Source: Thermobifida alba
GTDB taxonomy: Bacteria > Actinomycetota > Actinomycetes > Streptosporangiales > Streptosporangiaceae
DNA: 64,000 nucleotides
Direction: 5' to 3'
NCBI RefSeq assembly: GCF_023208015.1
Contig: NZ_CP051627.1
Coordinates: 4,818,422 to 4,882,421, forward strand
Of the stretch, positions 17,112-45,196 are shown one piece after another. The notes below the pieces were generated by a model that saw only the letters and a list, made by a program, of their open reading frames with translations, was not told the DNA's origin and searched no databases. The translations under genes and the position numbers were made by a program. Each line of letters starts with the position of its first letter. Within the stretch, counting starts at the first letter, position 1.

Positions 17112-20100
17112 ATGGCCGACCGGTGGTGGGGGCAGCGCTCCGAGCACGTGTGGGAGCAGGAGGCCCTCGAACACATCCGGGCGCTGATGCCGCAGCGCGA
17201 GCCCTACCGCGCCTGGCAGTGCTTCTCCTTCACCGCGGACTCCGGGCAGATCCGCGAGTGCGACCTGTTCGTCGTCACCCCGGCCGGGGCGTTCCTCGTC
17301 GAGATCAAGAGCCACCCGGGGCGGGCCGCCAACCGCGGCGGCACGTGGACGTTCTACGGCGACCGCGTCCGCACCATCGACAACCCGCTCCACCTCACCA
17401 ACCAGAAGGCCAAGGAACTCAAGAGCCAACTGGAGCGCGCGGCCCGCAGGCTCCGGATCCACGACTACCGGTCGCCGTACTTCACGCCCGCCGTCTTCCT
17501 GTCCGCCCCCGACCTGCGCTGCGAGTTCGACGACATCCAGCGGCAGCACGTCTACGGCCGCGAGAAGCTGGAGAAGCAGACCGGGCTGCCCGGCATCTGG
17601 AGCGGGCTGCTCGACCGGCACACCGGACGCCGCGGCCCCGACCACGTGTTCTTCCGCTCCATCACCCGGCTGATGGAGGAGATCGGGGCGAAGTCCATCC
17701 CCCGCAGCCTGGAGGTCGGCTCCTACGTCCTGGACGGCCGGGCGTTCGACAGCGGCCCCACCTGGACCGACTACCTCGGCCAGCACACGGTGCTCAAGAG
17801 CAAGCAGGGCCGGGTGCGCGTCTACCACTACGGCACCGCCGAGGACGACACGGCCAGGGAGTCGGTGCGGCGGGCCGCCGAACGCGAGTTCCGCTCCCTC
17901 GACGGCGTCGCACACGAAGGCATCGTCAAGGCCGAACACTACGAGGTGATCGACGGCCGCGGCCCGGCGATCGTGTTCGAGCACCGCAAGAACTGGCAGC
18001 GCCTCGACCACTACATGCAGGAGAACGGCGCCGACCTGGACGCCTACACCCGCATCGAGATGGTCCGCCAGCTCGCCGAGGCGGTCAACCACGCCCACCG
18101 CAACCGGCTGTTCCACCGCGCCCTGGCCGCCCGCAGCGTCTGGGTGGAACTCGACGGCAACTACCCGCGGCTGCGCATCGCCGACTGGCAGGTCGCCGCG
18201 CGCCGGGGCACCGCGTTCGGCAGCAGCGGGCACACCACCCGGACCGCCACCCACCACCTGGGAGAGGCCACGGCGGTGCGCGCCCTGGCCGACCACGTCG
18301 AGGCCGCCGCGCAGGCCTACCTCGCCCCCGAGTTCCCCGCCTTCGACGGCGACCCGCGCGCGCTCGACATGTTCGGCCTGGGCGCGCTGGCCTTCCTCGT
18401 CTTCACCGGCCGCCCGCCGGGCCAGAACCGCCAGGAGGTCAGCGGACACATCCGGGAGCACGGCGAACTCGCCCCCGCCGCGGTCGACGACGACATCCTC
18501 CCGGCCATGGACACCCTGGTGCGCGAGGCCACCCGGCGCACCCCCGCCGAACGCACCCGCTCCCCCCGCGAGTTCCTCCGCCGCATCGACGAGATCGAGG
18601 AGTTCCTGACCCGTCCCGACGTCGTCACCGACCCGCTCGTCGCGGTCAAGGGCCAGGAGGTCGTCGAGGGCTGGAAGGTGGAGAGCGTCCTCGGCAGGGG
18701 CGCCACCTCCCGCGCGCTGCTCGTGGCACGCGACGGCGAGCAGCGCGTCTTCAAGGTGGCGGTCAGCGACAGCGCCGCGGACAAGCTGCGCCGGGAGGCC
18801 GAACAGCTCCAGAAGCTGCGCGACCGCCGGATCGTCGCGACGGTCGGCGAGGACCCGGTCCTGGCCATCGGCGAACGCACCGCTCTGCAGCTCGAACTCG
18901 CCGGAGACCTCACCCTCGCCGACTACCTGCGCCTGGAGGGCGGGCTCGGCGTCGAGGAGCTGCGCCGCTTCGGCGTCGACCTGTTCGAGGTCGCCGACTA
19001 CCTGGAGGACCAGCGGGTCTTCCACCGCGACATCAAACCCGCCAACCTGGGGGTGCGCGAACGCAACAAGAAGAGCCGCGAACTGGTGCTGTTCGACTTC
19101 TCCCTGGCGGGGACCCCCACCAGGGACACCCGGGCCGGAACCCCCGGCTACCTCGACCCGTTCCTCGACCCCGAGGGGAAGGAACGCGGCTACGACAGCG
19201 CCGCCGAACGCTACGCCATCGCGGTCACCCTGCACGAGATGGCCTCCGGCGAGCTCCCGGTGTGGAGCGAGGACGGCGTCGAACCGCGTTTCCTGCCCGA
19301 CGACGTCCAGCACCCCCGGTTGAGCGAGGAGGACTTCCCCGACCAGGTCCGCAGGCCGCTCACCAGCTTCTTCCGGCGTGCCCTGCACCGCAGGCCCGAG
19401 AACCGGTTCGACACGCTCGCGGAGATGCGCGACGCCTGGGAACGGGCCTTCCAGGAGGTCGAGGACCGGCCGGTCACCACCCCCGACAGCGCCGCCGCGG
19501 CCGCGGCGGACGACGAGACCACCCGCCGGCGCAACGCCGAGAACGCCACCTCCACAACCCCGCTGTACCAGGCGGGACTCAGCCCCGACGCCCTGGACGC
19601 GGCCGTCCGCCTGCTGCGCTGCGAGACGGTCGGCGACCTGCTGGAGAAACCGGTCGCCGAGATCCGCCGCATGCGCGGGGTGCCCCTGCGGGCCCGCAAC
19701 GAACTGGCCGGCCAGGTCAACCGGTGGCGCAGGAAGCTGGCGCAGGCCGAGCCCGTCGTGCCGGTCAGCGCGAAACTGTCCGTGGACGGCGACACCGACG
19801 ACAGGACCCTGGCCAAGCAGCAGGCCAGCCTCGACAAGGTGATCCGCCAGTTCCTGCCGAAGACCACCGACAAGAACCGCGACTGGGTGCGCACCGCCCG
19901 GGAGCTGCTCGGCCTGCCCGAGGACGCCCTCGCCCAACCGGTGTGGCGCACCCAGAAGGAGGTCGCCGAACGGCTCGGCCTGAAACAGGTGTCGGTGTCG
20001 CGGCACCTGGCGGCCGCGCGTCGGCACTGGGAGAAGAGCGTCCTGCGCACGGCGGTGCGCGACGACATCGTGGCGATCCTCGCCCGGCACGGCCGCCTCC

Positions 20101-21389: not shown

Positions 21390-21875
21390 TCAGGAGGAGC
21401 CCCGGGGGCTGGACCACCGATTCCGGGGACTGACGTCTTCGCGCAGGACACGGTGGAGTTCCTCGGAGCGGCGTTGCACCCGGTCAGGCGGCGCACCCTC
21501 CTAGCGGATCGCGTCGTGGTGCGCAGCACCCGCGTCGGTGGGCCGTCCCGACGTGGCCGCGCGTGTCCTCCACAGGCCGCCGATGAGTCTGCGTTTGAAC
21601 ACCTCTCTGCCCGGGGGAACAGAAGTCGGCCTCGGCGGTGCCTTCCGCCTCCCGGGAGGAGGTTGACACCCGAAGACCGGGCCGACGGTCACCGGAAACC
21701 CGGCGGACGGTGGATCTGCCTGGCCCGGCTGTTGGCCAGCACCGTCCACCCGACGCCTTCGTGTGCGGCATGGGACTGAACCCGCCGCAGGCGGCGGAGC
21801 AGGTTTCTGGCCGTACCTCCGAAAACGTCGCAATGACGTATGAGGTGATTCCGGGGAGGAGTGGGAAGTGCACCG
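21390..21875. other. 486-base convergent intergenic region with inverted repeats
   Basis: Between the ends of pglW and mcrC. No convincing gene is present; frames here change composition and carry no known motif. At 21398-21410 AGCCCCGGGGGCT is a short GC palindrome just after pglW. At 21825-21840 ACGTC and GACGT flank five bases. The sequence becomes AT-richer from ~21,830 rightwards, as at other edges of the locus. Confidence 0.4.
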
Positions 21876-21887
21876 TCATTCCCCGGA
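21850..21887. terminator. Inverted repeat between convergent pglW and mcrC
   Basis: TCCGGGGA (21850-21857) is exactly complementary to TCCCCGGA (21880-21887) across 22 bases. No T-run follows. Its position at the mcrC stop codon, between convergent genes, suits a bidirectional terminator, but the loop is long. Confidence 0.3.
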
Positions 21888-23411
21888 GCGCAGGACCGCC
21901 GAAACTTCCGTGGAACGGAGGTTTCTCACGACCATCGGAAAATGTCCTCCGAAATCGGACACGGACAATTCTCCGGAGGTTCCCTTTGTGGTTCGGCGGA
22001 ATTCGCTTGAGTCGGTGTGCGGGTGGGAACGGTGCCGGGACGAGTGGGCCACCAGGATTCGCCGGGTCACGGCCCCGGCCGTGCCGCCACCGTCGCGGCC
22101 GGACGTGCGGGAGGGCGGTGGCGACACGGCCGCGTGGACTACGGGACGGCTCCGAGGACCGCGGAGGTCGTGGCCCGCCGTGTCGTCCAGGTTCTCCAGA
22201 AGCGCGGGCAGGTTGACGGCCACGGTCCTGATCCGGGCGAGCGGGGAACCGTCGACATGCCGTACCGACAGGCCGACCGGTGGCGTGTCGGCCGTTGTCG
22301 GATACAGCGCGCAGGCCGCCGCCGGGGTAGTCCCGCTGCTCAACGCGGACGCGTAGAGGAACAGCTGGTACAGGTCGCCCTGGCTGATCCTGCGGTCCGC
22401 GTAGAGCTTGTACTTGATGTCGACGGGCAGTTGCCAGGCATCCGATCCCGCGCTGCGGGTCAGCAGGACGTCGGGGCGGACCTCGGTGTAGCAGCGTCCG
22501 GTCGCCTCGTCGCGGATCACCCTGCGGTTCCTGTACTGGCCGTGGGCCGTGATCCCGCTGTTTTTCGCCCCCTCCCGCAGCAGTTGGGTGATGAACCTCT
22601 CGAACAGCGTGTTCATGTCGACGAGGAAGACCCGCCCCCTGCCGATGTCGCTGCTGTAGAGGTCGGCGAAACCACCCCTGCCCAGCAGACTCAGCGCCCA
22701 GTGGTGTGCGGCGCGGTAGTGGCTGTTGTGACGGTGGTAGTCCAGCCTGGGACGCACTTCGCGCGGGTCCAGCCTGGCGGGCGGGCTCAGCGCGGCGAAG
22801 TCGGCGGCCACCCGGCGGGCCCGCGCCCGCACACCCGCGTCGTCGGCGGTGCGGGCCGCGACCGCCAGCCCGGACGCGCACAGCCGGTTGTCCAGGATGT
22901 CGCTGTCGAACTCCTCGAACCGGCACTCCAACCGGTCCAGACGGCCGAACTGGCGCAGTACCTGGCGGTCGGGCAGCAGCCGCCCGCGCACGGCGGGAAG
23001 GGCTTCCTCCCGGCGCACGTAGTCGCGGCGCGGCCCGCGGGCCAGTAGGTTCTCGCATTCGACGGTGAGCAGTTGGCACACCAGGTCGCGCAGGTGCAGT
23101 CCCTCAACTGGCAGCGACCGGAGCAGGTCCAGTGAGGGCAGGGAGTTCAATCTGTCCGTGTAGTCGACCATCCGCAGGACGTTCAGTTCGTCGCCCGCCA
23201 GTTTGGGCACCACGCGAACACGCGCGCAGTCCAGTTCCACCACCCCGACGTACGAGGTGGCCCGGATTTTCAGGTTCCCGTCCGCGAGCCAGTCCAGCCG
23301 CAGCCGTTTGCGCAGCTCACGGTCCTGGGCCAGGGACTGGTCGGCCTCGGTGGGCGACAGGCCGCTGATGGTGAGGGACTGGTACTCGGTGAGGGTGATC
23401 TCCTCCGTCAT
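21876..23411 (-). CDS. mcrC: McrC-like nuclease subunit of McrBC restriction
   Basis: 511 residues from ATG 23411, overlapping the mcrB stop by four bases. Family features are SYVGVVELDCARVRVVPKL, the VRGRLLPDRQVLRQFGRLDR segment, CRFEEFDSDILDNR and the C-terminal PD-(D/E)xK core VRPDVLLTR then LPVDIKYKLYA (D and K near residue 333), followed by QGDLYQLFLYASAL. McrC is the nuclease partner of the McrB AAA+ motor in modification-dependent restriction. The last ~80 residues after GPRSRP are low in complexity, run into AT-richer DNA and do not look like McrC. The frame may have lost its original stop and gained a tail. The core appears intact. Confidence 0.85.
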   Translation of the reverse strand: MTEEITLTEYQSLTISGLSPTEADQSLAQDRELRKRLRLDWLADGNLKIRATSYVGVVELDCARVRVVPKLAGDELNVLRMVDYTDRLNSLPSLDLLRSLPVEGLHLRDLVCQLLTVECENLLARGPRRDYVRREEALPAVRGRLLPDRQVLRQFGRLDRLECRFEEFDSDILDNRLCASGLAVAARTADDAGVRARARRVAADFAALSPPARLDPREVRPRLDYHRHNSHYRAAHHWALSLLGRGGFADLYSSDIGRGRVFLVDMNTLFERFITQLLREGAKNSGITAHGQYRNRRVIRDEATGRCYTEVRPDVLLTRSAGSDAWQLPVDIKYKLYADRRISQGDLYQLFLYASALSSGTTPAAACALYPTTADTPPVGLSVRHVDGSPLARIRTVAVNLPALLENLDDTAGHDLRGPRSRPVVHAAVSPPPSRTSGRDGGGTAGAVTRRILVAHSSRHRSHPHTDSSEFRRTTKGTSGELSVSDFGGHFPMVVRNLRSTEVSAVLRSGE

Positions 23412-25930
23412 CGTTTGCTCTTCACCAGCAGTTCGGCGTAGAGGGCCGCCACGAGTTCCTCGTCGGTGAGGTCGTGCAGCCGGTAGTTCGCCGCGTCCAC
23501 GATCCGCTGTCCGAGGAGTCCGGCCAGCAGGGTGTAGTCGTCGTAGGCGTACTCCTGCAGGATGGGCAGCACCTCGGCGCGGATCACCGCGGCCAGGGTG
23601 GCCTCGTCGTCGACGACCCTGCCGCCGGGAAGGAAGAAGGAGTGGCCGATCTGGCGTTCCCGGCCGAACTCCGCCACCACCCGCTCGTTGAGTCTGCGCA
23701 GCAGGTCGCCGAGGTCCACACGGCCCACGTGGCTGTCGGCCAGCACTTCCGGGTCGGGCAGCAGTTCGACGAAGGCGAACCGGCGGCGCAGCGCCGCGTC
23801 GAGCAGGCGGATGCTGCGGTCGGCGGTGTTCATGGTGCCGAGGAGGTGGACGTTGGACGGGACCGTGAACTTCTCCCCGCTCTGCGGCAGCACCACGGGC
23901 AGGCCGCGTTTGTCCCGTTCGACCAGGGTGATCAGCTCGCCGAAGATCCGGGGCAGGTCGCCGCGGTTGATCTCGTCGACCACCACCAGGTAGGGCAGGC
24001 CCGGGTTCGCCTCTGCGGCCCGGCACACCCGTTTGAAGACCCCGTCGACCAGTTCCAGCCGCAACCCGTCGCCGTCGCCCCGGACTGGACGGAACCCCTC
24101 GATGAAGTCCTCGTACCCGTAGGCGGGGTGGAAGGTGATCTGCGTCAGGTGCCCCGTCCCGTGCTCGCCGGGCCGGGACAGTTCGGTGATTGCGTCGCGG
24201 AACTCCCCGGTGCCGTAGTCGGCCAGCGGGTCCAGGTGGGGAGCCACCCGTTGGGCGAGCCACCACAGTGCGAACCGCAGCACGGTGAAGGTCTTGCCGG
24301 TGCCCGGCGGGCCGTACAGCACGGCCTGGCCCTTGCGTTCCAGTTCGACGGTGAGCTTCTCGAACAGGGGCTCCGGCGGTGGGAGGGGGACTGCGGCGGC
24401 GGGGGCGGCGTCCGGCCGGGACGTGGCACCGGGGTGTGCGGCGTTCCGTTCGATCGTCCTCCACAGGGAGGCCGAAACGGTGCCCACGACGGCCGACGTC
24501 CAGCGTTTCTCCGGCCTGGGCAGGGTCTGCCGGTAGGACGTGTCCCATTCGACGGACACCGTGTGCCGGAACTCCGGGCGGTCGGCGCGCCAGACGTAGC
24601 CGTCGTCGGTCACCGTGCCGACAGCCAGGACCCGGTCCGCACCCTGGTGGGCGACGATCCGGTCACCCGGTTGCAGTTGGGTGAGCAGCCACAGCTCCGA
24701 AGCCGATTTCCGGGCCTCCTCGGCGCGGCCTCCCATGGGGGCGTCGGGCCGGGAGCGCGCGAACGCCGCGGCGAGGTCCTCTTCGGAAGCGTAGGCGGTG
24801 AGGTCCCCCACCGTGTCCCCGCCGACGCAGATGTAGCCGCCTCTCAGACAGTCGTCCCAGTACCGGTCCGGTCGGGCCGGCGCGACGTGCAGCGTGGTGA
24901 TGCTCGCGCGCGGATCAGCCCACCAGTACAGGAAGCGCATCACCTCGATCGGGTGCCATTCGGACAGGACGTGGTGAGTGTCGACGAGTTCCTTGAGGTG
25001 CTGGTGCGACGTGAAGACGTCGAGGTCGGTGGCCTTCTCGCCGCTGAGCAGTTCGATGAAGTGCCGCCGGTGGTCACGGGAGTAGACGGGCAGCAGGCGG
25101 TCGGGGAAGTAGCAGAAGAGCGTCTTGCTGGCCATCGCCGGTCCGGACCGCAGTGCCCTGATGCCGTCGATGTCGGAGACCCGTCCCTCCGCTGTGGCGG
25201 CGAACGCCGCCACGAACCCGCCGCGGAGGTCCTGCCACGCCTCGTTCACGTCGGCGAAGGCGGCGTCGTGGTGCCACCGCTGCTCGTTCTTGCGGTAGTA
25301 GATGATGTGCTTGCCCGCACTGCCGCCGCTGATGCTGCCGAGCGCGGGAGTCTGGAACTCGACGAGTCGGCAGAAGTTGTCCGGCCGGTCGGGGTGACCG
25401 AGCGCGTAGCGTTCCACCGGCATCTCGGACCAGTCAGCCAGGGGGAACTCCCGCTGCACCCGTTCGATCTGCTGCCCGGCCTCGGCGACGTCACGGGCGT
25501 GGGAAGCGCGGTCGAACGCCCTCAGAGCCCGGCTGAGCCGCCTCTTCAGAGGGCGGAAGTTCATCCCCCGAGCGTTCTTGTGCACCAGACGCAGCACGCA
25601 CCGCACACAGACGTACAGGGGAGTGCCCTGGTCGTTGACCAGGCCGTGGGAGCGGGCGAACTCCTGAGCCGCCCTCTTACCGGTCCGCTGGGCCTCGAGG
25701 AGTCCGCGGCCCAGGGTGCGGTCGGGGTCGGGGACGCGCCGGTAGTCCGCCGCGACGCGGACGTGCTGGCAGTCCTCGGAGTGGTGGATGACGGTGCTGC
25801 TCTTCGGAATGAGCACCCATCCGGGGGAGGGCTGGAACTCCCACAGCCAGCCGTCGAAGGCGACGAGTTCGTTCTTCCCGGTGGCGGGGGACGCCGACAG
25901 TTCCTCGTCCGGTTCCGGTGCGCTGTCCAC
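23408..25930 (-). CDS. mcrB: McrB-like AAA+ ATPase with modified-base-reader-type N-terminus
   Basis: 840 residues from GTG 25930, with GGAGG four bases upstream. The C-terminal ~310 residues are an McrB AAA+ motor: GPPGTGKT near residue 540, THP-like QITFHPAYGYEDFIEGFRP, VVVDEINRGD as Walker B, LLGTMNTADRSIRLLDAALRRRF as sensor/arginine finger, and GHSFFLP. The N-terminal ~500 residues replace the classical McrB reader: a His/Cys set (HHSEDCQH, CVRC), a helical region with MASKTLFCYFPDRLLPVYS, then a PUA/EVE-like barrel (GGYICVGGDTVGDL, LQPGDRIVAHQG, RVLAVGTVTDDGYVW). Such barrels read modified bases in related proteins. With mcrC it forms a two-gene operon nested inside the BREX locus. Confidence 0.88.
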   Translation of the reverse strand: MDSAPEPDEELSASPATGKNELVAFDGWLWEFQPSPGWVLIPKSSTVIHHSEDCQHVRVAADYRRVPDPDRTLGRGLLEAQRTGKRAAQEFARSHGLVNDQGTPLYVCVRCVLRLVHKNARGMNFRPLKRRLSRALRAFDRASHARDVAEAGQQIERVQREFPLADWSEMPVERYALGHPDRPDNFCRLVEFQTPALGSISGGSAGKHIIYYRKNEQRWHHDAAFADVNEAWQDLRGGFVAAFAATAEGRVSDIDGIRALRSGPAMASKTLFCYFPDRLLPVYSRDHRRHFIELLSGEKATDLDVFTSHQHLKELVDTHHVLSEWHPIEVMRFLYWWADPRASITTLHVAPARPDRYWDDCLRGGYICVGGDTVGDLTAYASEEDLAAAFARSRPDAPMGGRAEEARKSASELWLLTQLQPGDRIVAHQGADRVLAVGTVTDDGYVWRADRPEFRHTVSVEWDTSYRQTLPRPEKRWTSAVVGTVSASLWRTIERNAAHPGATSRPDAAPAAAVPLPPPEPLFEKLTVELERKGQAVLYGPPGTGKTFTVLRFALWWLAQRVAPHLDPLADYGTGEFRDAITELSRPGEHGTGHLTQITFHPAYGYEDFIEGFRPVRGDGDGLRLELVDGVFKRVCRAAEANPGLPYLVVVDEINRGDLPRIFGELITLVERDKRGLPVVLPQSGEKFTVPSNVHLLGTMNTADRSIRLLDAALRRRFAFVELLPDPEVLADSHVGRVDLGDLLRRLNERVVAEFGRERQIGHSFFLPGGRVVDDEATLAAVIRAEVLPILQEYAYDDYTLLAGLLGQRIVDAANYRLHDLTDEELVAALYAELLVKSKR

Positions 25931-25949
25931 GGGGCCTCCGATCTTTTGG

Positions 25950-25963
25950 GGAATTCACGGAAG
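25950..25963 (-). promoter_or_regulatory. Leader element CTTCCGTGAATTCC before mcrB
   Basis: On the minus strand CTTCCGTGAATTCC ends 19 bases before the mcrB start. CTTCCGTGAGATTCC (34853-34867) sits 22 bases before the giant ATPase start. The near identity and equal placement suggest a shared operator or transcript leader. Confidence 0.4.
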
Positions 25964-26026
25964 GCGTGCACGCGAGGCACATCATGCCCGAAGCGTGGGA
26001 CAGAAGACGGACGAATTCTCTTTTTG

Positions 26027-26057
26027 TCGGAGTCCGAACAATTGATGAGAATTATGT
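26027..26057 (+). repeat. Composite element A: TCGGAGTCCGA palindrome plus GAATTATGT
   Basis: A perfect 11-base palindrome (26027-26037) is followed after 11 bases by GAATTATGT (26049-26057), in an AT-rich pocket of the 216-base gap upstream of mcrB. The same two parts in the same order occur at 45339-45378. The two copies bracket the ATPase, beta-CASP and pglYZ-brxD-brxHI block. Confidence 0.35.
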
Positions 26058-26146
26058 CGAAGATTCAGCGGAAACTCCGCGACCCTGTCCCCAGTGCCAC
26101 CGGCGGTCGCCGGAATGGCCCTGGGGCAGGGAGCGCCGGAGCCCGG

Positions 26147-35178: not shown

Positions 35179-38100
35179 ATGACGACGTCTCCCTCCACCG
35201 CCAGCGGCAAACGGTTCATCGGCGACCTCATCGAGATCCCCGAAGCCATCCACGACGGCGACCTGGTGTTCAAGGTCTCCGAAGGCGTGGACGAGGAGAA
35301 GCAGGCCCAGGCGCTCCGCGACTACGTCGTCACCCCGCAGCTCGCCCGCAACTTCGACGAGGCGCTCACCACCATCAAGGGCGCGCTCGCCCAGCGGCAG
35401 TCCCGCGCCACCTACCTCAACGGCTCCTTCGGCTCCGGCAAGAGCCACTTCATGGCGGTGCTGCACGCCATCCTCAACCACGACCCCGTCGCACGCGGCC
35501 TGGCGCGGATGCCCGACGTCCTCGCCAAGCACGACGACTGGCTGGAGGGCAAGAAGTTCCTGCTCGTCACCAGCCACCTGGTGGACGCCGAATCCATCGA
35601 GGCGGCCATCCTCGGCGGCTACGTGCGCACCGTGCGCCGCCTGCACCCCGACGCCCCCGTCCCGCCCGTCTACCGGGCCGACGGCCTGCTCGCCGACGCC
35701 CGCGACCTGCGCGCCAAACTCGGCGACGAGAAGTTCATCGCCGACCTGCCCGCCCCCGAGAGCTCCGCCGCCTCCAGCGCGTGGGGCAGCACCCGCTGGG
35801 CCGCGGCCGCCCGGTGGACCCCCGACAAGCTCGACGAGGCGTTCGCCGTGCCCGCCGGGACCACCGACCCCGACCAGGTCAGACTCCGCAACGGACTGGT
35901 CAGCGCCCTGCTCGGCAGCCACTTCAGGCGCTACACCGACGTCGTCCACGGCGACCGGGAAGCCTTCGTCACCCTCGACGACGGCCTGTCCGTCATCAGC
36001 CGCCACGCCAAGGAGGAACTCGGCTACGACGCCGTCGTGCTGCTGCTCGACGAACTGATCCTGCGCTTCACCCGCTTCCTCGGCGGCGACGAGGCGCAGA
36101 TCAACGCCGAGGCGCAGAAGATGTCCAAACTGGTGGAGTCCTCCGAGTCCTACCGGCCCGCGCCCGTCATCAGCTTCGTGCCGCGCCAGCGCGACCTGCG
36201 CGACCTCGTCGGCACGAACGTCACCGGCGCCACCGGCGGCCTGTTCGACACCCTCAAGTACTGGGACGGCCGGTTCGGCCACATCAAACTGGAGGACGGC
36301 AACCTCACCGAGGTGGTGCGGCACCGGCTGCTGCGCCCCGCCACCCCCGAGGCCGCCGACGAGATCAGCGCCGCCTTCGAACGCATGCGCAACACCCGCC
36401 CCGAGGTGCGCGACACCCTCCTCGACTCGCCCGGCGGCGAAGCCGACACCTGGGAGGACTTCCGCGCCCTCTACCCGTTCAGCCCCGCCCTGCTGCACGT
36501 CATGGTGGACCTGTCGGCGGCCCTGCAACGCCAGCGCAGCGCCCTCAAACTCATGCGGCAACTGCTGGTCAACCACCGCACCAGCCTGCCCGTGGGACAG
36601 CTCGTGCCGCTCGGCGCGGTCTTCGACGTCCTCGTCGAAGGCGAGGACCGCCCCTTCCACGACCGGCTCAGCGCCGAGTACGAGAAGATCCGCGACTTCT
36701 ACCGCAACAAGGTGCGCCCCTGGCTGCTGCGCCGCCACAAGCTCACCGAGGAGGACGCGGCCGGCCTGGACGTGCGCCACCCGTTCCGCGCCGAGGACCT
36801 GCTCGTCAAGACCATGCTGCTGGCCTCGCTGGTGCCGAACGTGCCCGCGCTCAAGGAGGTCACCGTCAGCCGGATGATCGCCCTCAACCACGGCATCATC
36901 CCCGCGCGCCGCACCGGCCAGGACGTCACCAGGACCGCCGCGTTCTTCCGGGAGCTCGGCACCCAGTTCGGCGAGGTCCGCGTCGGCCCCGGCGACAACC
37001 CCACCGTCACCCTCAACCTGCTGCGCGTCGACACCGAGTCGCTGATGCGCAGCAGCTACAACGCCGCCAACGACCAGGCCATGCGGCGGCTGTTCAAACG
37101 GCTGCTCTGGGAGGAGCTGGGGCTCGACCCCGACGCCACCCGCACCGAGATCACCTGGCGCGGCACCCTGCGCACCGTGGAACTCGACTTCGGCAACGTC
37201 CGCTCCGAGGACTCCCTGATGCGGCAGCGGTTCGTCCCGGAAACCCCCGGCGCGGTGCGCGTCGTCGTCGACTACCCCTTCGACGAGGGCGCCCACCGGC
37301 CCGTCGAGGACCGGCAGCGCGTCCAGGAGCTGCGCGAGGAGTTCACCGAGCCGCCCGCCACCCTCGCCTGGCTCCCGCACTTCCTGTCCGACAGCCGGCA
37401 GCAGGACGCGCGGCGGCTGCTGATGATGGAGCACCTGCTGCAGGACGGCGTCATCGAGGAGAAGGCCCCCGACTGGAGTTCGGAGGACCGCCGCGAGGCC
37501 CGCCAGCAGCTCGACAACCAGGCCCACCGGATCCGGGAGCAGCTGCGGGACCTGCTGCGCGGCGTCTACGGCGCCACCAACGCCGACGACACCGACCTCG
37601 GCGAACGCGTCCCGCAGCACGTCGAGGCGCTGCTGCCCAACGTCGACATCGTCATCGAGGCGGGCAGCCAGCTCCGCGACGCCCTGCACCGCATCGCCGG
37701 GAAGCTCCTCGACCACCTCTACCCCGAGCACCCCGACTTCTCCGCCGTCACCGGAGCCAGGCGGGAGGTGCGCCGCAGCGACCTCACCGCCGTCCTGCAG
37801 GCCGTGGAGAACGCCAAGGCCGACCGGTTGCAGCGGTACGAGCCCGCGGCCAAGAGCGAACTCCCGGTGCTGCGCCGCGTCGCCCAGCCGCTGGAGATCG
37901 CCACGGTCAGCGAGGTATTCATCCTGCGCGACACCTGGCTCACCGCGCTGGACGACGCGGCCCGCACCGAGCAGCCCGACACCACCGACATCCGGGTCCG
38001 CGACCTGAAGAAGTGGATCCGCGAACGCGGCGAGGGCAAGGGACTGCCCGACGACATCGTCGACCTGCTCGTGCTGGTCTACGCGGTGCAGTCCGACCGG

Positions 38101-38973
38101 GCGTGGATCCGCGCGGGCAAACGCTACACCGGCGCCGAGATCGGCAGGCTCGACGGCGACATCGTGCTGCGCCGCCAACCGCTGCCCTCCGAGGAGGACT
38201 TCGACGCCGCCAACCGGCGCGCCAGGCAGCTGTTCGGCCTGGAACCGCAGCCGGTCCGCAACGCCCGGGCCGTGCAGCGGCTCGCCGAACAGCTCAAGGA
38301 GCGCGGCAGCACCTGGCTCGCCGCCACCGAGACGCTGCTGACCCAGCTGCAGCGGCGCGCGGTCCTGCTCGGCGTGGACGAGGAGGCGCCCCGGCTGCGC
38401 ACCGCCCAGGCCACTTACGAGCTGCTGGGCCGACTGCGCGCCCTCGCCGACGACACCGAACTGGTCACCGCGCTGGCCCGCGCCGACCTGCCGGGGGACG
38501 CCGCGGTCTACAAGGTCAGCATGGAGACCGCCGGAAACGTCGCGGCGGCGCTGGACAGCGCCCGCTGGGAGACCTTCGACACCCTGCTCGACCTCGTCGA
38601 CGGCGGAGGCGAGCACGCGTCGGAGGCCGCCGCACTGCTGCAGACGCTGCGGACGGCGGCACGCCACAACGAACAGGAGAAGAAGCTCGCCACCGAACTG
38701 GACCGGGTGGCCGGCAGGGCGTTCGAGCTGATCCGCAGGAGCGTGACGAAGAAGCAGGACCCGGTCGTCCACGGCTCCGGGCCGACCGGGGGAGGCGGAG
38801 TGGCCCCGCCCGTCGTCCACCCCGACCCGGTCATCGGGGAGGTCGCCGCCGAGGCCAGCGCCGTCCTGACCCCCGGACAGGACGTGGCCGCCGCCGTCAC
38901 CCGCCTGCGCGGCCGGCTCGGCATCCCCGACGACGCCGACATCGAGATCACCGTGCGGGTGGTGCGCCGGTGA
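35179..38973 (+). CDS. pglY: BREX ATPase PglY (BrxC family)
   Basis: 1264 residues from ATG 35179, with GAGAAGGG eleven bases upstream. This is the large BREX P-loop ATPase. NGSFGSGKSHFMAVLH (lysine near residue 89) is the Walker A, VVLLLDELILRFTRFLGGDE near 290 is the Walker B region, and ISFVPRQRDLRDLVG follows. The rest contains the family's helical segments (VLLRRQPLPSEEDFDAANRR, LFGLEPQPVRNARAVQRL). Length is typical of PglY/BrxC (~1200). In Pgl systems it is essential for phage exclusion and probably acts with PglZ on DNA. It is the first gene of a four-gene operon whose members overlap or abut; its stop overlaps the pglZ start by four bases. Confidence 0.9.
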   Translation: MTTSPSTASGKRFIGDLIEIPEAIHDGDLVFKVSEGVDEEKQAQALRDYVVTPQLARNFDEALTTIKGALAQRQSRATYLNGSFGSGKSHFMAVLHAILNHDPVARGLARMPDVLAKHDDWLEGKKFLLVTSHLVDAESIEAAILGGYVRTVRRLHPDAPVPPVYRADGLLADARDLRAKLGDEKFIADLPAPESSAASSAWGSTRWAAAARWTPDKLDEAFAVPAGTTDPDQVRLRNGLVSALLGSHFRRYTDVVHGDREAFVTLDDGLSVISRHAKEELGYDAVVLLLDELILRFTRFLGGDEAQINAEAQKMSKLVESSESYRPAPVISFVPRQRDLRDLVGTNVTGATGGLFDTLKYWDGRFGHIKLEDGNLTEVVRHRLLRPATPEAADEISAAFERMRNTRPEVRDTLLDSPGGEADTWEDFRALYPFSPALLHVMVDLSAALQRQRSALKLMRQLLVNHRTSLPVGQLVPLGAVFDVLVEGEDRPFHDRLSAEYEKIRDFYRNKVRPWLLRRHKLTEEDAAGLDVRHPFRAEDLLVKTMLLASLVPNVPALKEVTVSRMIALNHGIIPARRTGQDVTRTAAFFRELGTQFGEVRVGPGDNPTVTLNLLRVDTESLMRSSYNAANDQAMRRLFKRLLWEELGLDPDATRTEITWRGTLRTVELDFGNVRSEDSLMRQRFVPETPGAVRVVVDYPFDEGAHRPVEDRQRVQELREEFTEPPATLAWLPHFLSDSRQQDARRLLMMEHLLQDGVIEEKAPDWSSEDRREARQQLDNQAHRIREQLRDLLRGVYGATNADDTDLGERVPQHVEALLPNVDIVIEAGSQLRDALHRIAGKLLDHLYPEHPDFSAVTGARREVRRSDLTAVLQAVENAKADRLQRYEPAAKSELPVLRRVAQPLEIATVSEVFILRDTWLTALDDAARTEQPDTTDIRVRDLKKWIRERGEGKGLPDDIVDLLVLVYAVQSDRAWIRAGKRYTGAEIGRLDGDIVLRRQPLPSEEDFDAANRRARQLFGLEPQPVRNARAVQRLAEQLKERGSTWLAATETLLTQLQRRAVLLGVDEEAPRLRTAQATYELLGRLRALADDTELVTALARADLPGDAAVYKVSMETAGNVAAALDSARWETFDTLLDLVDGGGEHASEAAALLQTLRTAARHNEQEKKLATELDRVAGRAFELIRRSVTKKQDPVVHGSGPTGGGGVAPPVVHPDPVIGEVAAEASAVLTPGQDVAAAVTRLRGRLGIPDDADIEITVRVVRR

Positions 38974-41726
38974 CCGCCCCCGCCACAACCGCCCCGCCCG
39001 TCACCGTCGACGCGGTCCGCGGCGCGCTGCGGCGCGCCCTGGCCCGCCAGGAACGGCGCGCCGAACGCGGCCACGCCTCGGCGGCGGCCCGCGCGGTCGC
39101 GCTGCGCGCCGCCCCCGAATGGTCCGGACCCGACGAGATCACCGTCGAGCACCGGGGCCGCACGGTCCGCGCCCGCGTCGCCCCCGCCCCCACCGTGCTC
39201 GCCGTCCTCGCCGAACTGGGCCGCCCCCGCGACGCCGAATACCTGGTGCTGCTCACCCCGTGCACCACCAGGGACCTCGGCGACTCCCTGCTGTCCCGGA
39301 TCGTCGGACACGAGGTCACCGCCGTCAACAGCTGGGAGCTGCTCGCCGACGAGTTCGGGCTGCGCATGCTCGACCCGCGCCTGCACTCCCGCGAGCTGGC
39401 GTGGCTCGCCAACGCCCTCTACGACGTCGGCACCGGAGCCGAGTGGCGCCGGGGCACCACCGTCCTCAAACTCGACGACGCCCTGCACCGGGTGGCCGCC
39501 GTCCGCTTCGGCCACCACGCCGCCGACCGGCTCGACGCCGCCGCCCTCCTCGACTGGACCAGGGACCCCGTCCGCGTCACCCGCTTCACCACCCTGCCCG
39601 CGGAAGAGCGCGACGGGCTGCGCCGCGCCCTGGAGGAGCACGTCGGCGCGGTCGCCCGGGTCGTGTTCCGCCTCCTCGACCGGCAGCAGGTCTACGACGC
39701 GCTGCCGGTCGGACTGGTCCTGCGGGAACTGCTCGACGCCGACACCGCCGGCCTGCCCGGCATGGCGGAGGCACGCATCCGCGTCGAGGAACGCTTCCTC
39801 GGCGCACCCCCGCCCAGCGTCGACGACCTGCGGCGGTTCGCCGACAGCTGCGAGGCCGCCCTGCTGCGTCTGATGGACGGCGCCGAACACGACGCCGCCA
39901 TCGGCGCCAGCGCGCGCGCCGAGGAGATCCTCGCCGCCGTCGGCGCGGACGCGGCCGCCGAGAACAGCCGCGTCCTGGCCACCGGGCTCCAGGCCCGCCT
40001 CGCCGCGCTCGGCGCGCAGATCAGCCTCCTGGTCCGCCCCGACGCGCCCGACCCCGACCCCCACGACCTCGCCCCCGTCGAGGAGGCGTTCGCCCGGCTC
40101 CGGGACCACCGGCGCTGCGACCCCACCGCACCGGAGTTCACCGGCGCGCTCAACGCCGTGCGCCTGCTGCGCTGGCTCGCCTCCGAGCAGCCGCCCCGCA
40201 ACACCGTCGCCGACGGGGTCGCGGCACACCTCGCCGACACCGCCTGGGTGGACCGCGCCGCCAGCACCCTGCACACCACCCACACCGACAGCCCCGCGCT
40301 CGGCGCGGCCTACCGCCAGTTGTACGCGCGCGTCCGCGACCGGCGCGCCGCCGTCGACGAGACGTTCGCCCGCCGGGTCGCCGCGTGGACCGAGGTGTCG
40401 TCGCACACCGACCACCTGCTGCTCGCCGAGAACCTGCTGCACCGCGTCGCCCTGCCGGTGGCGAAGAAACGCGCCCCGCTGATCGTGGTGCTCGACGGGA
40501 TGAGCGCCGAGGTCGCCGTGCAGCTCGCCGAGGAGATCACCGCGGACGGGCAGCTTCTCGAAGCCGCCCGCAGTGAACGCGGACGCGAGGGCGCGCTGGC
40601 CACCCTGCCGTCCATCACCACCTGCTCGCGGACCTCGCTGCTGTGCGGCGCCCTCACCACCGGCGGCCAGAGCGAGGAACGTGCCGGGTTCGCCGCGCTG
40701 TGGCGGCAGGCGTCGTGGGGAGGGCGGCCCAGCACCCTGCTCTACCAGCGGGACCTCGCCGCCGGCGCCGGGGACCGGCTGCCCACCGAGGTCTACGAGG
40801 CCATCGGCGACCCCGAGCGGGTCGTCGCCGCCGTCCTCAACATCGTCGACGACTCCCTGGCCAAGGGCCGCGAAAGCGACACCGCCGCCTGGCGGACCAG
40901 CCGCATCGGCAAACTCCCCGCGCTGCTGGACGCCGCCAAACGCGCCGGACGACCCGTCATCCTCACCTCCGACCACGGCCACGTGTGGGACCGCGACGAG
41001 AACCGCAGAACCGGCGACGGCGAAGCCGCCCGCTACCGCACCGGAACCCCCGGCGACCGGGAACTGCTCGTCACCGGCGACCGGGTGCTCGCCGGAGGCG
41101 GCAGCATCGTCGTGCCCTGGGACGAACGGATCCGCTACACCTCCCGCCGGGCCGGCTACCACGGCGGCATCTCCACCGCGGAGATGGTCATCCCCGTGCT
41201 CGTGTTCGTCCCCGACCGGAGCCTCATCCCCTCCGAGTGGCACCGGCATCCACTGCGCCCCACCCAGCACGAACCCGCCTGGTGGAACCGGGAACTGGCC
41301 GCACCCACCCGGCACGCCCCCGCCGGCCCGCCCCGGCCCGCCGCCCGGAAGGGGCGCCCGCAGGCCGTCCAGGACGACGCGCTGTTCGCCCCCGAAGAAG
41401 CCGTCCGCACCCTGGGCCGGCGCGTCGTGGACTCCTCGGTCTTCACCGAAATCCACGGCCAGGCGCCGCGCAGCCCCGCCAAGGAGGAGATCGCGGCCGT
41501 CATCGACACGCTCGCCGCGGTCGGCGGCGACCGGCCCCGCCTGCCCGTCGAACGGGTCGCCAAAGAAGCGGGCAAGGAACCGTTCCGCGCGGTGCGGTTC
41601 CTGAAGATGGTCGCGAAGGTACTGAACGTGGAAATGTTCCCGGTACTCGTGCTCACCGACGCCGACCGCGCCGTGGAACTCAACATCCCCCTGCTCAAGG
41701 AGCAGTTCCCGGAAGGGGCGTCCTAG
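38970..41726 (+). CDS. pglZ: BREX phosphatase-like protein PglZ
   Basis: 918 residues from GTG 38970, which overlaps the pglY stop (GTGA). The frame continues upstream through pglY but that part is shadow. The PglZ domain, an alkaline-phosphatase-superfamily fold, spans ~500-760: PLIVVLDGMSAEVAVQLAEE near 507, LPSITTCSRTSLLCG with the nucleophile-position Thr/Ser cluster, ILTSDHGHVWDRDENRR near 668 and GYHGGISTAEMVIPVLVF near 730. These aspartate/histidine motifs are the metal ligands of the superfamily. The N-terminal half is helical. PglZ is the universal BREX signature gene, which makes the identification of the locus firm. Confidence 0.93.
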   Translation: MTAPATTAPPVTVDAVRGALRRALARQERRAERGHASAAARAVALRAAPEWSGPDEITVEHRGRTVRARVAPAPTVLAVLAELGRPRDAEYLVLLTPCTTRDLGDSLLSRIVGHEVTAVNSWELLADEFGLRMLDPRLHSRELAWLANALYDVGTGAEWRRGTTVLKLDDALHRVAAVRFGHHAADRLDAAALLDWTRDPVRVTRFTTLPAEERDGLRRALEEHVGAVARVVFRLLDRQQVYDALPVGLVLRELLDADTAGLPGMAEARIRVEERFLGAPPPSVDDLRRFADSCEAALLRLMDGAEHDAAIGASARAEEILAAVGADAAAENSRVLATGLQARLAALGAQISLLVRPDAPDPDPHDLAPVEEAFARLRDHRRCDPTAPEFTGALNAVRLLRWLASEQPPRNTVADGVAAHLADTAWVDRAASTLHTTHTDSPALGAAYRQLYARVRDRRAAVDETFARRVAAWTEVSSHTDHLLLAENLLHRVALPVAKKRAPLIVVLDGMSAEVAVQLAEEITADGQLLEAARSERGREGALATLPSITTCSRTSLLCGALTTGGQSEERAGFAALWRQASWGGRPSTLLYQRDLAAGAGDRLPTEVYEAIGDPERVVAAVLNIVDDSLAKGRESDTAAWRTSRIGKLPALLDAAKRAGRPVILTSDHGHVWDRDENRRTGDGEAARYRTGTPGDRELLVTGDRVLAGGGSIVVPWDERIRYTSRRAGYHGGISTAEMVIPVLVFVPDRSLIPSEWHRHPLRPTQHEPAWWNRELAAPTRHAPAGPPRPAARKGRPQAVQDDALFAPEEAVRTLGRRVVDSSVFTEIHGQAPRSPAKEEIAAVIDTLAAVGGDRPRLPVERVAKEAGKEPFRAVRFLKMVAKVLNVEMFPVLVLTDADRAVELNIPLLKEQFPEGAS

Positions 41727-43064
41727 GTGAACGCCGTCAGCGCCGCCCGCCGCCGCGAGGTCCTCGACGCACTGCGCCGCGGCACCGTGCCGCAGTCCGG
41801 TCTCGACCTGTTCGCGGTCGGCCTCGACCGCTTCGAGACCGTCCTCGACGGCGAACTCGCGGCGGTGGCCGCGGGCAGCGCCGGATTCAAGGCGGTGCGC
41901 GGCGAGTACGGGGCCGGCAAGACGTTCTTCTCCCGCTGGCTCGCCGAACGCGCCAAACGCGCCGGGTTCGCCGTCACCGAGATCCAGGTCTCCGAGACCG
42001 AGACCCCCCTGCACCGGCTGGAAGCCGTCTACCGGCGGCTCACCGAACGCCTCGCCACCGCCACCCAGCCGCCCAGCGCCCTGCGGGAGATCATCGACAA
42101 CTGGGTCTACACCCTCGAAGAGGACGTCCTCGACCGGGGCACGGTGCCCACCGGCGCCGACGGCCCCGACGAGCAGGCCCTGACCGCCGAGGTCGCCGCC
42201 CTCCTGGAGCAGCGGCTCGCCGCCGTGGCGCGCAGCAGCCCCGGGTTCGCGCTGGCGCTGCGCGGCTACCACCGCGCCCAGTCCGAAGGCGAGAAAGCGA
42301 CCGCCGACGCGCTGGTCGCCTGGCTCGGCGGACAGCCCAACGTGGCGGCCGCCGCGAAACGCTACGCAGGAATCAAGGGCGACCTCGACCACTTCGGCGC
42401 ACTCGCCGCCCTCCAGGGCCTGCTGACCCTGCTGCGCGACTGCGGCCACCCCGGGCTGCTCGTCGTCCTCGACGAACTGGAAACCCTGCAACGGGCCCGC
42501 TCCGACACCCGCGACAAGGCCCTCAACGCGCTGCGGCAGCTCCTCGACGAGATCGCCGCCGGACGCTTCCCCGGCCTGTACCTCGTCATCACCGGCACGC
42601 CCGCCTTCTACGACGGGCCGCAGGGCGTGCAGCGCCTCGCCCCGCTCGCGCAGCGCCTCGCCACCGACTTCATGGCCGACCCGCGCCACGACAACCTGCG
42701 GGCCGCGCAGATCCGCCTGCCCGGCTTCGACCTGCACCGCCTGCACCGGCTCGGCACCGCCGTGCGCGACCTCTACGCCGCCGGCGCCGAGCAGCCCGAC
42801 CGGGTGCGCGACCGCGTCGACGACGCCTACGTGCGCGACCTCGCCGAAGCCGTCGCCGGGGAGCTCGGCGGCCGGATCGGCGTGGCGCCCCGCCTGTTCC
42901 TGCGCAAACTCGTCGACGTCAGCGACCGGGTCAACGACATCGCCGACTTCGACCCCCGCGTCCACTACCGGCTCACCGTGCGCGCGGGCGACCTCACCGA
43001 CACCGAACGCAACGCCTGGACCCGGCGCGCCTCCTCCGCCGACGAGGTGGAACTCGACCTGTGA
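41727..43064 (+). CDS. brxD: BREX ATP-binding protein BrxD
   Basis: 445 residues. GTG 41727 immediately follows the pglZ stop; GGAAGGGG lies about ten bases upstream. The sequence fits the BrxD (DUF2791-type) ATPases: FEAV-like KAVRGEYGAGKTFFSRWLAE (Walker A near residues 58-68), ATEIQVSETETPLHRLEAVYRRL, GLLVVLDELETLQRARSDTR near 247 (Walker B) and a sensor stretch YLVITGTPAFYDGPQG. Length is normal. BrxD accompanies BrxHI in BREX types 2 and 6. Its stop overlaps the brxHI start by four bases, indicating coupled translation. Confidence 0.9.
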   Translation: MNAVSAARRREVLDALRRGTVPQSGLDLFAVGLDRFETVLDGELAAVAAGSAGFKAVRGEYGAGKTFFSRWLAERAKRAGFAVTEIQVSETETPLHRLEAVYRRLTERLATATQPPSALREIIDNWVYTLEEDVLDRGTVPTGADGPDEQALTAEVAALLEQRLAAVARSSPGFALALRGYHRAQSEGEKATADALVAWLGGQPNVAAAAKRYAGIKGDLDHFGALAALQGLLTLLRDCGHPGLLVVLDELETLQRARSDTRDKALNALRQLLDEIAAGRFPGLYLVITGTPAFYDGPQGVQRLAPLAQRLATDFMADPRHDNLRAAQIRLPGFDLHRLHRLGTAVRDLYAAGAEQPDRVRDRVDDAYVRDLAEAVAGELGGRIGVAPRLFLRKLVDVSDRVNDIADFDPRVHYRLTVRAGDLTDTERNAWTRRASSADEVELDL

Positions 43065-45196
43065 CCGCGGCCAGCAGCCTCGACCTGCTCCACCCCACCC
43101 TCACCCACCACGTCGTCAACACGCTGGGCTGGCCCGCGCTGCGCCCCCTGCAACGCGAGGCGCTCGCGCCGCTCACCGCCGGGGAGGACGCGGTGCTGCT
43201 CGCGCCCACCGCCGGCGGCAAAACCGAGGCGGCGCTCTTCCCGCTGCTCACCGCGATGGCCCGCGACGGCTGGGACGGCGTGTCGCTGCTGTACGTGTGC
43301 CCGCTGAAAGCCCTGCTCAACAACCTGCTGCCGCGTGTGCAGAGCTACGCCGGGTGGCTGGGCCGCACCGCCGCCCTGTGGCACGGCGACGTCACCGCGG
43401 CCGCCCGCCGACGCATCCTACGCGACCGCCCCGACGTCCTGCTCACCACGCCCGAGTCGCTGGAGGCGATGCTGGTGAGCACCAAGGTCGACCACCGCGC
43501 CTTCCTCGGCGGGGTGCGCGCCGTCGTCGTCGACGAGGTGCACGCGTTCGCGTCCGACGACCGCGGCTGGCACCTGCTCGCCGTCCTGGAGCGCCTCACC
43601 CGGCTGTGCGGGCGGCCCGTGCAGCGCGTGGGGCTGTCCGCCACCGTCGGCAACCCCCGCGACCTGCTCACCTGGCTGCAGGGCAGCGGCGCCGGGACAC
43701 GCCCCGGCCGGGTGGTCGCCCCCGGGGTGCGGCCGCCCACCGCCCCACCGCCGGACCAGGGCCCGCCGCCCGGGGAGGTGGAACTCGACTACGTGGGCTC
43801 CCCCGAGAACGCCGCCACCGTCATCGCGGCCCTGCACCGCGGGGAGAAGCGGCTGGTGTTCTGCGACTCGCGGCAACTCGTGGAACGCATCGGCGCGGCC
43901 CTGCGCGCCAGGGGCACCACCGTGTTCCTGTCGCACGCCTCCCTGTCCGTCGACGAACGCCGCCGCGCCGAGCAGGCGTTCGCCGAGGCCCGCGACTGCG
44001 TCATCGTCGCCACCTCCACCCTGGAGCTCGGCATCGACGTCGGCGACCTGGACCGGGTCGTCCAGGTCAACGCGCCCGGCACGGTCGCCTCCTTCCTGCA
44101 GCGCATCGGCCGCACCGGCCGCCGCGCCGACACCACCCGCAACTGCCTGTTCCTCGCGCTCCACGAACCCGGACTGCTGGGCGCCGCCGGACTGCTGCGC
44201 CTGTGGGGGCGGCACTGGGTGGAACCCGTGCACCCCACCCCGGAGCCCCGGCACATCGTCGCCCAGCAGCTGCTGGCGCTGTGCCTGCAGGAGTCGCAGG
44301 TCGGCGAGCGGCTGTGGGCGGAGTGGTGGGACGGCCTGGAACCGTTCGGCCACGGCGAACCGGTCCTCGCCCACCTGCTGCGCGAGGGCTTCCTCACCCG
44401 CGACGGCGGCATGCTCCTGGTCGGCCCCGAGGCGGAGCGCCGGTTCGGGCGGCGGCACTTCGCCGAACTCACCGGGGTGTTCACCGCGCCCCCGGAGTTC
44501 ACGGTGCTGCACGGCCGCACCGAGATCGGCCGCACCAACCCGGCGCTGCTCGCGGCGGCCGAACCGGGGGAGGGGCCGCGCAGGCTGCTGCTGGCGGGCC
44601 GCAGTTGGGCGGTGACCTGGGTGGACTGGAAGCGGCGGCGCTGCTTCGTGGACCCGGTCGACGACGGCGGCGGGAGCGCGCGCTGGGACGCCGCGGGCCA
44701 CACCGGCTGGTCGTTCGAACTGGCCCGGGCGGTGCGCGAGGTGCTGCTGGGCGCCGACCCGCCGGTGAAGCTGACCCGGCGCGCCGCCGACGCCCTGGCC
44801 AAGGCCCGCGACCGGCACGCCGACCACGTCCACGCCGACGGCACCGTCGTCACCCGCGGCGGCGGCGGCGTGCGCTGGTGGACGTGGGCGGGCACGCGCG
44901 CCAACCTCACCCTGCGCGCCACCCTCACCGGACTCGTCGACCCCGCCCAGCGGGTCGGCGACACCGGTCTGCGGCTGTGCGGCGACACCGACCCGGCCCG
45001 CTGGCGGGCGGTCCGGGAGGCCGCGGTCGACCGGGTCGCGTTGCCGCAGGTGGACGACAGGGCCCTGGAGGGGTTGAAGTTCACCGCCGCGCTCCCGCGC
45101 CACCTCGCCGAACGCACTCTCGCGGCCCGGTTGGCCGACGTGGCGGGGGCGCGGGCGGTGCTGGCGGAGCCGACCCGGTTCGTGGTGGGGGAGTGA
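43061..45196 (+). CDS. brxHI: BREX helicase BrxHI (Lhr-like DEAD/DEAH)
   Basis: 711 residues from GTG 43061, overlapping brxD. A superfamily 2 helicase: Q-like WPALRPLQREALAPL, APTAGGKTEAALFPLL (Walker A near 52), LLTTPESLEAMLVS, VVVDEVHAF (DEVH near 157), RVGLSATVGNP, CVIVATSTLELGIDVGDLDRVV and QRIGRTGRR near 350. The C-terminal part has Lhr-like winged-helix segments (HIVAQQLLALCLQ). All helicase motifs are intact. It closes the pglYZ-brxD-brxHI operon; a GC hairpin follows directly after its stop. The name follows from family plus position. Confidence 0.9.
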   Translation: MTAASSLDLLHPTLTHHVVNTLGWPALRPLQREALAPLTAGEDAVLLAPTAGGKTEAALFPLLTAMARDGWDGVSLLYVCPLKALLNNLLPRVQSYAGWLGRTAALWHGDVTAAARRRILRDRPDVLLTTPESLEAMLVSTKVDHRAFLGGVRAVVVDEVHAFASDDRGWHLLAVLERLTRLCGRPVQRVGLSATVGNPRDLLTWLQGSGAGTRPGRVVAPGVRPPTAPPPDQGPPPGEVELDYVGSPENAATVIAALHRGEKRLVFCDSRQLVERIGAALRARGTTVFLSHASLSVDERRRAEQAFAEARDCVIVATSTLELGIDVGDLDRVVQVNAPGTVASFLQRIGRTGRRADTTRNCLFLALHEPGLLGAAGLLRLWGRHWVEPVHPTPEPRHIVAQQLLALCLQESQVGERLWAEWWDGLEPFGHGEPVLAHLLREGFLTRDGGMLLVGPEAERRFGRRHFAELTGVFTAPPEFTVLHGRTEIGRTNPALLAAAEPGEGPRRLLLAGRSWAVTWVDWKRRRCFVDPVDDGGGSARWDAAGHTGWSFELARAVREVLLGADPPVKLTRRAADALAKARDRHADHVHADGTVVTRGGGGVRWWTWAGTRANLTLRATLTGLVDPAQRVGDTGLRLCGDTDPARWRAVREAAVDRVALPQVDDRALEGLKFTAALPRHLAERTLAARLADVAGARAVLAEPTRFVVGE

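Follow-up and report, generated by a model that had tools for sequence, protein, structure and literature searches.

A type 2 BREX/Pgl locus of Thermobifida alba without a linked pglX, and a candidate methyltransferase gene elsewhere in the same genome

Can a type 2 bacteriophage exclusion (BREX)/phage growth limitation (Pgl) system dispense with its methyltransferase, PglX, or is the enzyme encoded elsewhere? The question is raised by a locus of Thermobifida alba lying in a window of 64,000 nucleotides (the whole stretch analysed; genome G000, C1:4818422-4882421) from a single-contig genome of 4,903,256 bases that is 100% complete. A sequence-only reading of the window had recognised pglW, pglY, pglZ, brxD and brxHI with their key motifs, no pglX, and McrBC plus an ATPase/beta-CASP operon between pglW and pglY. 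It left two options, a distant methyltransferase or a derivative that does without methylation, with recognition or killing provided by the extra modules, proposed searching the full genome and surveying others, and held that a pglX elsewhere, co-conserved with the locus, would speak against a PglX-free system. We consider it likely that the locus belongs to a type 2 BREX/Pgl system from whose operon the methyltransferase gene has moved away, and that PglX is supplied in trans. The gene content points to a BREX whose parts are probably all present, though dispersed over the chromosome, and not to one that works without methylation. This is a new arrangement of a known system.

The description of the locus was borne out. 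The five BREX genes, with frames fixed by codon scoring, are all full-length and share one reading direction; the mcrC, mcrB, beta-CASP and AAA genes between them lie on the opposite strand, and their family matches and motifs agree with the earlier assignment (Table 1). PglY has the Walker A motif GSFGSGKS and BrxD has GEYGAGKT, BrxHI has GGKT, DEVH and SAT, PglZ has LDGM and SDHG, and PglW keeps HRD and has DFS in place of the usual DFG. Frame and codon scoring place the start of brxHI at 43061, not 40643. When six PglX proteins were compared with the window by tblastn, the best match had E = 0.38, and no remnant of a pglX in the window was detectable. Counted over the whole genome, all the members of a type 2 BREX are present: type 2 PglZ, PglY/BrxC, PglW, BrxD, BrxHI and a PglX with motif I and NPPY.

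This PglX was found by the genome-wide search, in which the type 2 PglX model NF033451 gave two genes above its cut-off, an intact PglX1 and a second copy, PglX2; among 14 control genomes the model had matches in 8 and a match above cut-off in none. PglX1 matches at C1:272270-275911 with 1826.8 bits and without a stop (PADLOC PglX, 1693 bits) and has the motifs DPTCGSG and GNPPYITV; its frame is intact and by codon scoring extends from about 272252, giving an orphan gene at C1:272252-275947 of about 1231 amino acids (aa), accompanied by its own XRE-type regulator. We took the contig to be circular because a DISARM operon spans its ends; the distance between brxHI and PglX1 is then about 312 kb (from 4863617 to 4903256 and on to 272252). 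The genome has a single PglZ_2. As a claim about the genome, a BREX without PglX thus did not hold, given an intact PglX1 of 1827 bits about 312 kb off. Genes of GmrSD type and HipA type lie a few kb from the orphan pglX1 (L053:12373-15331).

One further match, to MmeI_TRD at C1:3611, was rejected as a PglX. Like PglX, it is a large methyltransferase-type defence gene, but it scores 1597 bits as DrmMI against 33 bits as PglX and stands inside the DISARM operon that crosses the contig ends. That operon (drmD, then drmMI, drmA and drmB; L003:16820-19960 and L002:509-16180) lies about 36 kb past brxHI, and its gene order is what we take to be that of class 1 DISARM. Close to it are an LmuB-like gene and a second McrB-like gene (L003:5206-13649), and a gene near DISARM (L003:12702-13649) shares 96% identity with a gene in the neighbourhood of pglX1 (L053:15441-16373).

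Evidence that PglX1 belongs with the locus comes from four Thermobifida genomes (our own G000, with G001, G002 and G003). G002 has the locus at the same site, close to the same upstream genes, and is 83% (PglW), 84% (PglY), 79% (PglZ), 89% (BrxD) and 90% (BrxHI) identical to the window; its pglW is followed after about 300 bases by pglY, with neither pglX nor cargo between them. In G003, pglY to brxHI are kept at 75-87% identity, and 5' of pglY stands a 72-codon pglX end with a stop; its identity is 87.5% to the orphan PglX of G003 and no more than 61% to linked PglX proteins among the 12 best matches listed. In G001, pglW, pglY, pglZ and brxD are lost from the site, and brxHI (93%) and the AAA/beta-CASP pair remain. 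Three of the four genomes (G000, G002, G003) have no intact linked pglX at the locus, and each of these has an orphan pglX. The three orphans belong to a single clade, with the PglX1 of G002 and G003 78% and 75% identical to that of T. alba; none was found in G001, where all six PglX candidates were scored. PglX1 is hence present in 3/3 genomes with the locus and absent from 1/1 without it, which are small numbers. Of the two options offered earlier, the distant methyltransferase gains from this co-occurrence with the BREX lineage in the genus, and the methylation-independent derivative loses, since a pglX elsewhere is indeed co-conserved with the locus. Two BREX systems occur in G002, and its PglX copies group with the matching subtype; beside the second of them are genes that look CRISPR-like by eye (Cas2-like and reverse-transcriptase-like; L064:2703-7466). 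G001 also has a second BREX (pglW-X-Y-Z-brxD, C1:1303750-1325000), which ends at brxD, without brxHI. This genome has a single close BrxHI (93%; next best 36%), whose gene is on its own at the old site (L119:7501-9636), about 0.92 Mb from the other BREX.

A related ancestry is also seen in the trees. The PglX1 proteins of G000, G002 and G003 form one clade (Shimodaira-Hasegawa-like approximate likelihood ratio test 99, by a quick method) beside the linked PglX of G013, G062, G093 and G246, and for PglZ and PglY the same loci likewise group together (100/100), with the same companions as PglX1. The PglX, PglY and PglZ trees thus appear to agree broadly.

An unlinked pglX is unusual. The survey of other genomes covered 341 genomes of the GTDB family, in which 90 PglZ_2 loci were counted in 82 genomes, and a sample of 394 genomes of the class, with 38 PglZ_2 loci outside the family. 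A pglX lay within 30 kb on the same contig at 78/90 family loci (62 of them under 5 kb; median 4126 bp), mostly directly 5' of pglY, and inside 19.1 kb at 31 of the 38 class loci, which agrees with the earlier view of PglX as a normally constant, linked partner. Gaps of up to 20 kb between pglX and pglZ exist, so that cargo between the two is not rare. Twelve of the 90 family loci had no pglX inside 30 kb: the three genus loci (G000, G002, G003), G333, G303 C27 and seven more. The far-off pglX is intact in G000 and G002, which are clear cases, and probably so in G003. G303 has pglX at another locus, and the seven others come from genomes assembled into 80 to 800 contigs, among them G302, without PglX above cut-off. 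For the seven unlinked class loci (G549, G526, G573, G678, G035, G561, G037) the assemblies have 40 to 1310 contigs; no PglX passes the cut-off in G035 or G037, and in G561 the PglX lies on a different contig, broken into two pieces. In the family and class searches two candidates were scored per genome, so third copies may be missed, whereas the 41-genome searches scored all. One pglX row, the third copy of G002, was added to the 90-locus count, and a pglZ piece of G064 (C82:49-840, with which its locus would count as linked), three pglZ fragments and three pglX fragments were left out. PglX-family genes above cut-off also occur in genomes without PglZ_2 above cut-off (G107:C3, G326:C22, G133:C42, G122:C1, G274:C44), and in the PglX tree those of G122 and G133 belong to a deep clade.

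Several observations weigh against a partnership of PglX1 and the window locus. The comparison covered only four Thermobifida genomes, which limits the co-occurrence of PglX1 with the locus, and the branching order of PglX1 within the genus did not resolve. The orphan pglX1 stands at a different site in each species, with only the regulators as close shared matches in the 35-38 kb compared. For the same pairs, synonymous divergence (dS) is 0.69-1.62 for PglX1 against 0.19-0.53 for pglY and pglZ, and PglX1 has therefore been exchanged or evolves under another codon bias; the linked pglX genes measured have low GC content at third codon positions (GC3) as well, and one linked pair has a dS of 0.65. 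In G003, pglW is on a separate contig (C63, 78%), and the pglY contig stops about 4 kb past pglY. The single-contig G333 has just pglX fragments (534226-535534) beside pglZ and no PglX above cut-off; its pglW and pglY likewise match only in pieces. PglX1 could be a solitary methyltransferase.

Taken further, these points would mean that the window BREX is a relic in decay, that PglX1 is a solitary methyltransferase unrelated to it, and that nothing works together. The varying sites of pglX, the reduction of the G001 locus to brxHI, and ratios of nonsynonymous to synonymous divergence (dN/dS) of 0.26-0.51 for PglY and PglZ, which are fairly high, are in keeping with such decay. The five locus genes are nevertheless full-length with their motifs kept, and locus and PglX1 have been retained together in three species and are both missing from G001. 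In Streptomyces coelicolor, PglX is reported to methylate DNA and to be toxic without PglZ (PMC4365076), a toxicity that would predict such a joint loss of locus and PglX1. We regard the relic as unlikely.

The 13.6 kb of cargo occupies the usual position of pglX, and a derivative free of PglX and of methylation, in which McrBC and AAA/beta-CASP have taken over recognition or killing, would explain both this position and the locus without pglX. The genome holds an intact related PglX elsewhere, however. In the DNA alignment with G002, the match breaks off at the stop codon of pglW (21389) and resumes at 34997, which marks the cargo as an inserted stretch of about 13.6 kb. Because the G002 locus has neither pglX nor cargo, the cargo is no substitute for PglX. 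The AAA/beta-CASP pair as a replacement of PglX was rejected for this reason and for two more. In Actinorugispora endophytica (G062), a BREX with its own linked pglX has the pair at a distance of about 3 kb from its brxHI; and relatives of the AAA protein are present in 55/341 family genomes, only 2 of which, by coordinates, have it within 10 kb of a PglZ_2. The suggestion that the extra modules supply recognition or killing was not borne out, and we judge the PglX-free derivative very unlikely.

What the pair is can be described in part from its neighbourhoods. The two nearest relatives of the AAA protein are 88% and 74% identical and the others at most 47%; the family-genome search found none in G002 or G003. 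The pair occupies the same site in G001, so this part of the cargo may be older than the split from G001. In 15/15 best-scoring loci the beta-CASP gene adjoins the AAA gene. PADLOC gave no match for the AAA protein (E up to 0.001) or for the beta-CASP protein (E up to 1e-15). The pair lies near brxD/brxHI relatives in G091 (64%) and G106 (BrxD 63%; the stretch ends there), and in the 20-kb stretches of G007, G340 and G342 no such neighbours were seen. From these matches the pair appears to be a two-gene module, matched to no named system, that is independent of the absence of PglX. The stretches of G091 and G106 (L135, L136) combine BrxD relatives (in L135 also BrxHI) with a short PglZ-like C-terminal frame and the AAA protein, and hold genes that by eye resemble vWA, phosphatase and kinase genes. 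The term 'beta-CASP' occurs in none of the literature matches listed for beta-CASP with defence systems, and the main text of PMC12839542 makes no mention of beta-CASP, metallo-beta-lactamase, McrB, or split or unlinked loci.

The second paralogue, PglX2, was also weighed as the partner of the window locus. It lies about 1.64 Mb away at C1:3196244-3199840 (model match 3196271-3199843; NF033451, 1596.6 bits over positions 2-1183 of 1185) and has an intact frame of about 1,200 aa (PADLOC PglX, 1412 bits; DUF7008, 460 bits). A flag of one TGA had marked it as a broken gene, which was rejected, the stop being the natural end of the frame. PglX2 is present in all four genus genomes at the same haem-gene site, between rraA-like and Prim-Pol-like genes and near genes that presumably are hemL and hemB. 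It is a type 2 PglX by sequence and length, and its motif I is DPACGSG; motif IV, which reads NPPY in 46/46 other PglX frames (50 frames examined of 105 matches), is TSPPHT in T. alba, TEPPHA in G001, TSPPAV in G003 and ADPPYT in G002, so that the (N/D)PPY form is lacking in G000, G001 and G003. In S. coelicolor, the NPPY change Y381A abolished Pgl and left an almost undetectable activity (PMC4365076). PglX2, moreover, groups with the other BREX subtype and is kept in G001 despite the loss of pglW, pglY, pglZ and brxD at the window site. Its intact frame and its presence in all four genomes therefore do not save it as the partner, a role that we find extremely improbable. Its dN/dS is 0.34-0.64, compared with 0.12-0.24 for PglX1, 0.13-0.24 for hemB and 0.26-0.51 for pglY/pglZ, and its GC3 in G000 is 0.96; purifying selection thus seems visible but weak, and slow decay is possible. 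As judged from its motifs, PglX2 is a putative pseudoenzyme-like paralogue, more surprising than the split operon itself.

With PglX1 as the likely partner, the system would work as follows. The window locus would provide PglW, PglY, PglZ, BrxD and BrxHI, and the orphan gene about 312 kb away would provide PglX, which probably assembles in trans with the window-encoded proteins. As in ordinary BREX, host DNA would carry an N6-adenine methylation mark set by PglX, and phage DNA without it would be attacked by a complex centred on PglZ; in S. coelicolor, the kinase activity of PglW and the ATPase activity of PglY were required for Pgl (PMC4365076). McrBC and AAA/beta-CASP are, on this reading, defence modules in their own right that were inserted into the gap between pglW and pglY. 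A bolder possibility, which we offer tentatively and consider doubtful, is a distributed BREX with a fixed core at one site, a relocating regulator-pglX cassette that acts in trans and has its target-recognition part replaced between species, and a long-resident PglX2, no longer catalytic in most species, that now serves as a non-enzymatic part, e.g., a decoy or regulator that might bind PglZ; in G001, even brxHI would then be supplied from another site.

The S. coelicolor type 2 BREX/Pgl (pglWX, pglYZ, brxD, brxHI) shares with T. alba the standard families, the order W-(X)-Y-Z-D-HI and a PglX of the same family; in T. alba, pglX is about 312 kb off with its own regulator, and the gap is filled by McrBC and AAA/beta-CASP. 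The S. coelicolor pgl genes are reported to form two operons 6 kb apart (PMC4365076), and of 1309 taxa with a type 2 system about 80% are reported to have PglW (PMC12839542). The linked loci of Actinorugispora endophytica (L105/L118), with its AAA/beta-CASP pair, and of G013 are complete from pglX to brxHI (PglY 71-73%, BrxD 85%, linked PglX 73% identical to the orphan), but there pglX is still directly 5' of pglY. Limited text searches of the literature gave no description of a split, orphan or inactive PglX, which is not proof of absence in print.

In type I restriction systems, orphan specificity genes are a case of a DNA-recognition subunit encoded away from the operon. The off-operon position of the recognition part is alike in T. 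alba, and the most divergent stretch of the three PglX1 proteins has a mean identity of 26%, against 64-90% in the remaining blocks; in T. alba, the whole methyltransferase, not a specificity subunit alone, is encoded away from the operon. Defence finders based on operons would call the locus incomplete or a new PglX-free type, which the content of the genome contradicts. If PglX does act in trans, specificity could be changed by swapping one cassette with the core unchanged, and a PglX paralogue with a full frame but without the catalytic motif would naturally separate the binding and methylating roles of PglX.

Table 1. Features of the BREX locus and its cargo, in window coordinates
Feature	Position	Strand	Evidence
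pglW (NERD + kinase), 1425 aa	17112..21389	+	PADLOC PglW 1550.6 bits; NCBIfam NF033442 1544.6 bits; Pfam NERD, Pkinase
Cargo, 13.6 kb, between pglW and the upstream region of pglY	21390..34996		DNA alignment with G002
mcrC-like nuclease subunit	21876..23411	-	Pfam McrBC 147 bits; DIKYK motif
mcrB-like AAA subunit with N-terminal extension	23408..25930	-	Pfam AAA_5 47.6 bits; NF008457 125 bits (below cut-off 637); GPPGTGKT, DEIN
beta-CASP/metallo-beta-lactamase nuclease, 755 aa	26147..28414	-	aCPSF1-like 171.5 bits and Cas14-like 169.9 bits, both below cut-off; HAHNDHGG
AAA ATPase, 2139 aa, partner of the beta-CASP gene	28411..34830	-	AAA_22 22.8 bits (below cut-off 27); GRQLGKS, FFDEAD
Conserved region 5' of pglY, probable promoter	34997..35178 (34997-35032 and from 35063)	+	81-82% DNA identity to G002; part common to G003
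pglY (brxC)	35179..38973	+	PADLOC BrxC 1455.6 bits; NF047891 1034.7 bits, nearly whole model, below cut-off 1700
pglZ, type 2	38970..41726	+	NF033446 869.2 bits (cut-off 200); PADLOC PglZ 905.2 bits
brxD	41727..43064	+	Pfam BrxC_BrxD 456 bits; PADLOC BrxD 682 bits
brxHI	43061..45196	+	PADLOC BrxHI 1060.6 bits, residues 811-1514 of an over-long frame

Two minor observations concern the 3' end of the locus. The PADLOC models SngB and SngC also match the BrxD and BrxHI of the window, and directly 3' of brxHI lies a transposase piece of IS4/5 type (DUF4096; window 45655-46032).

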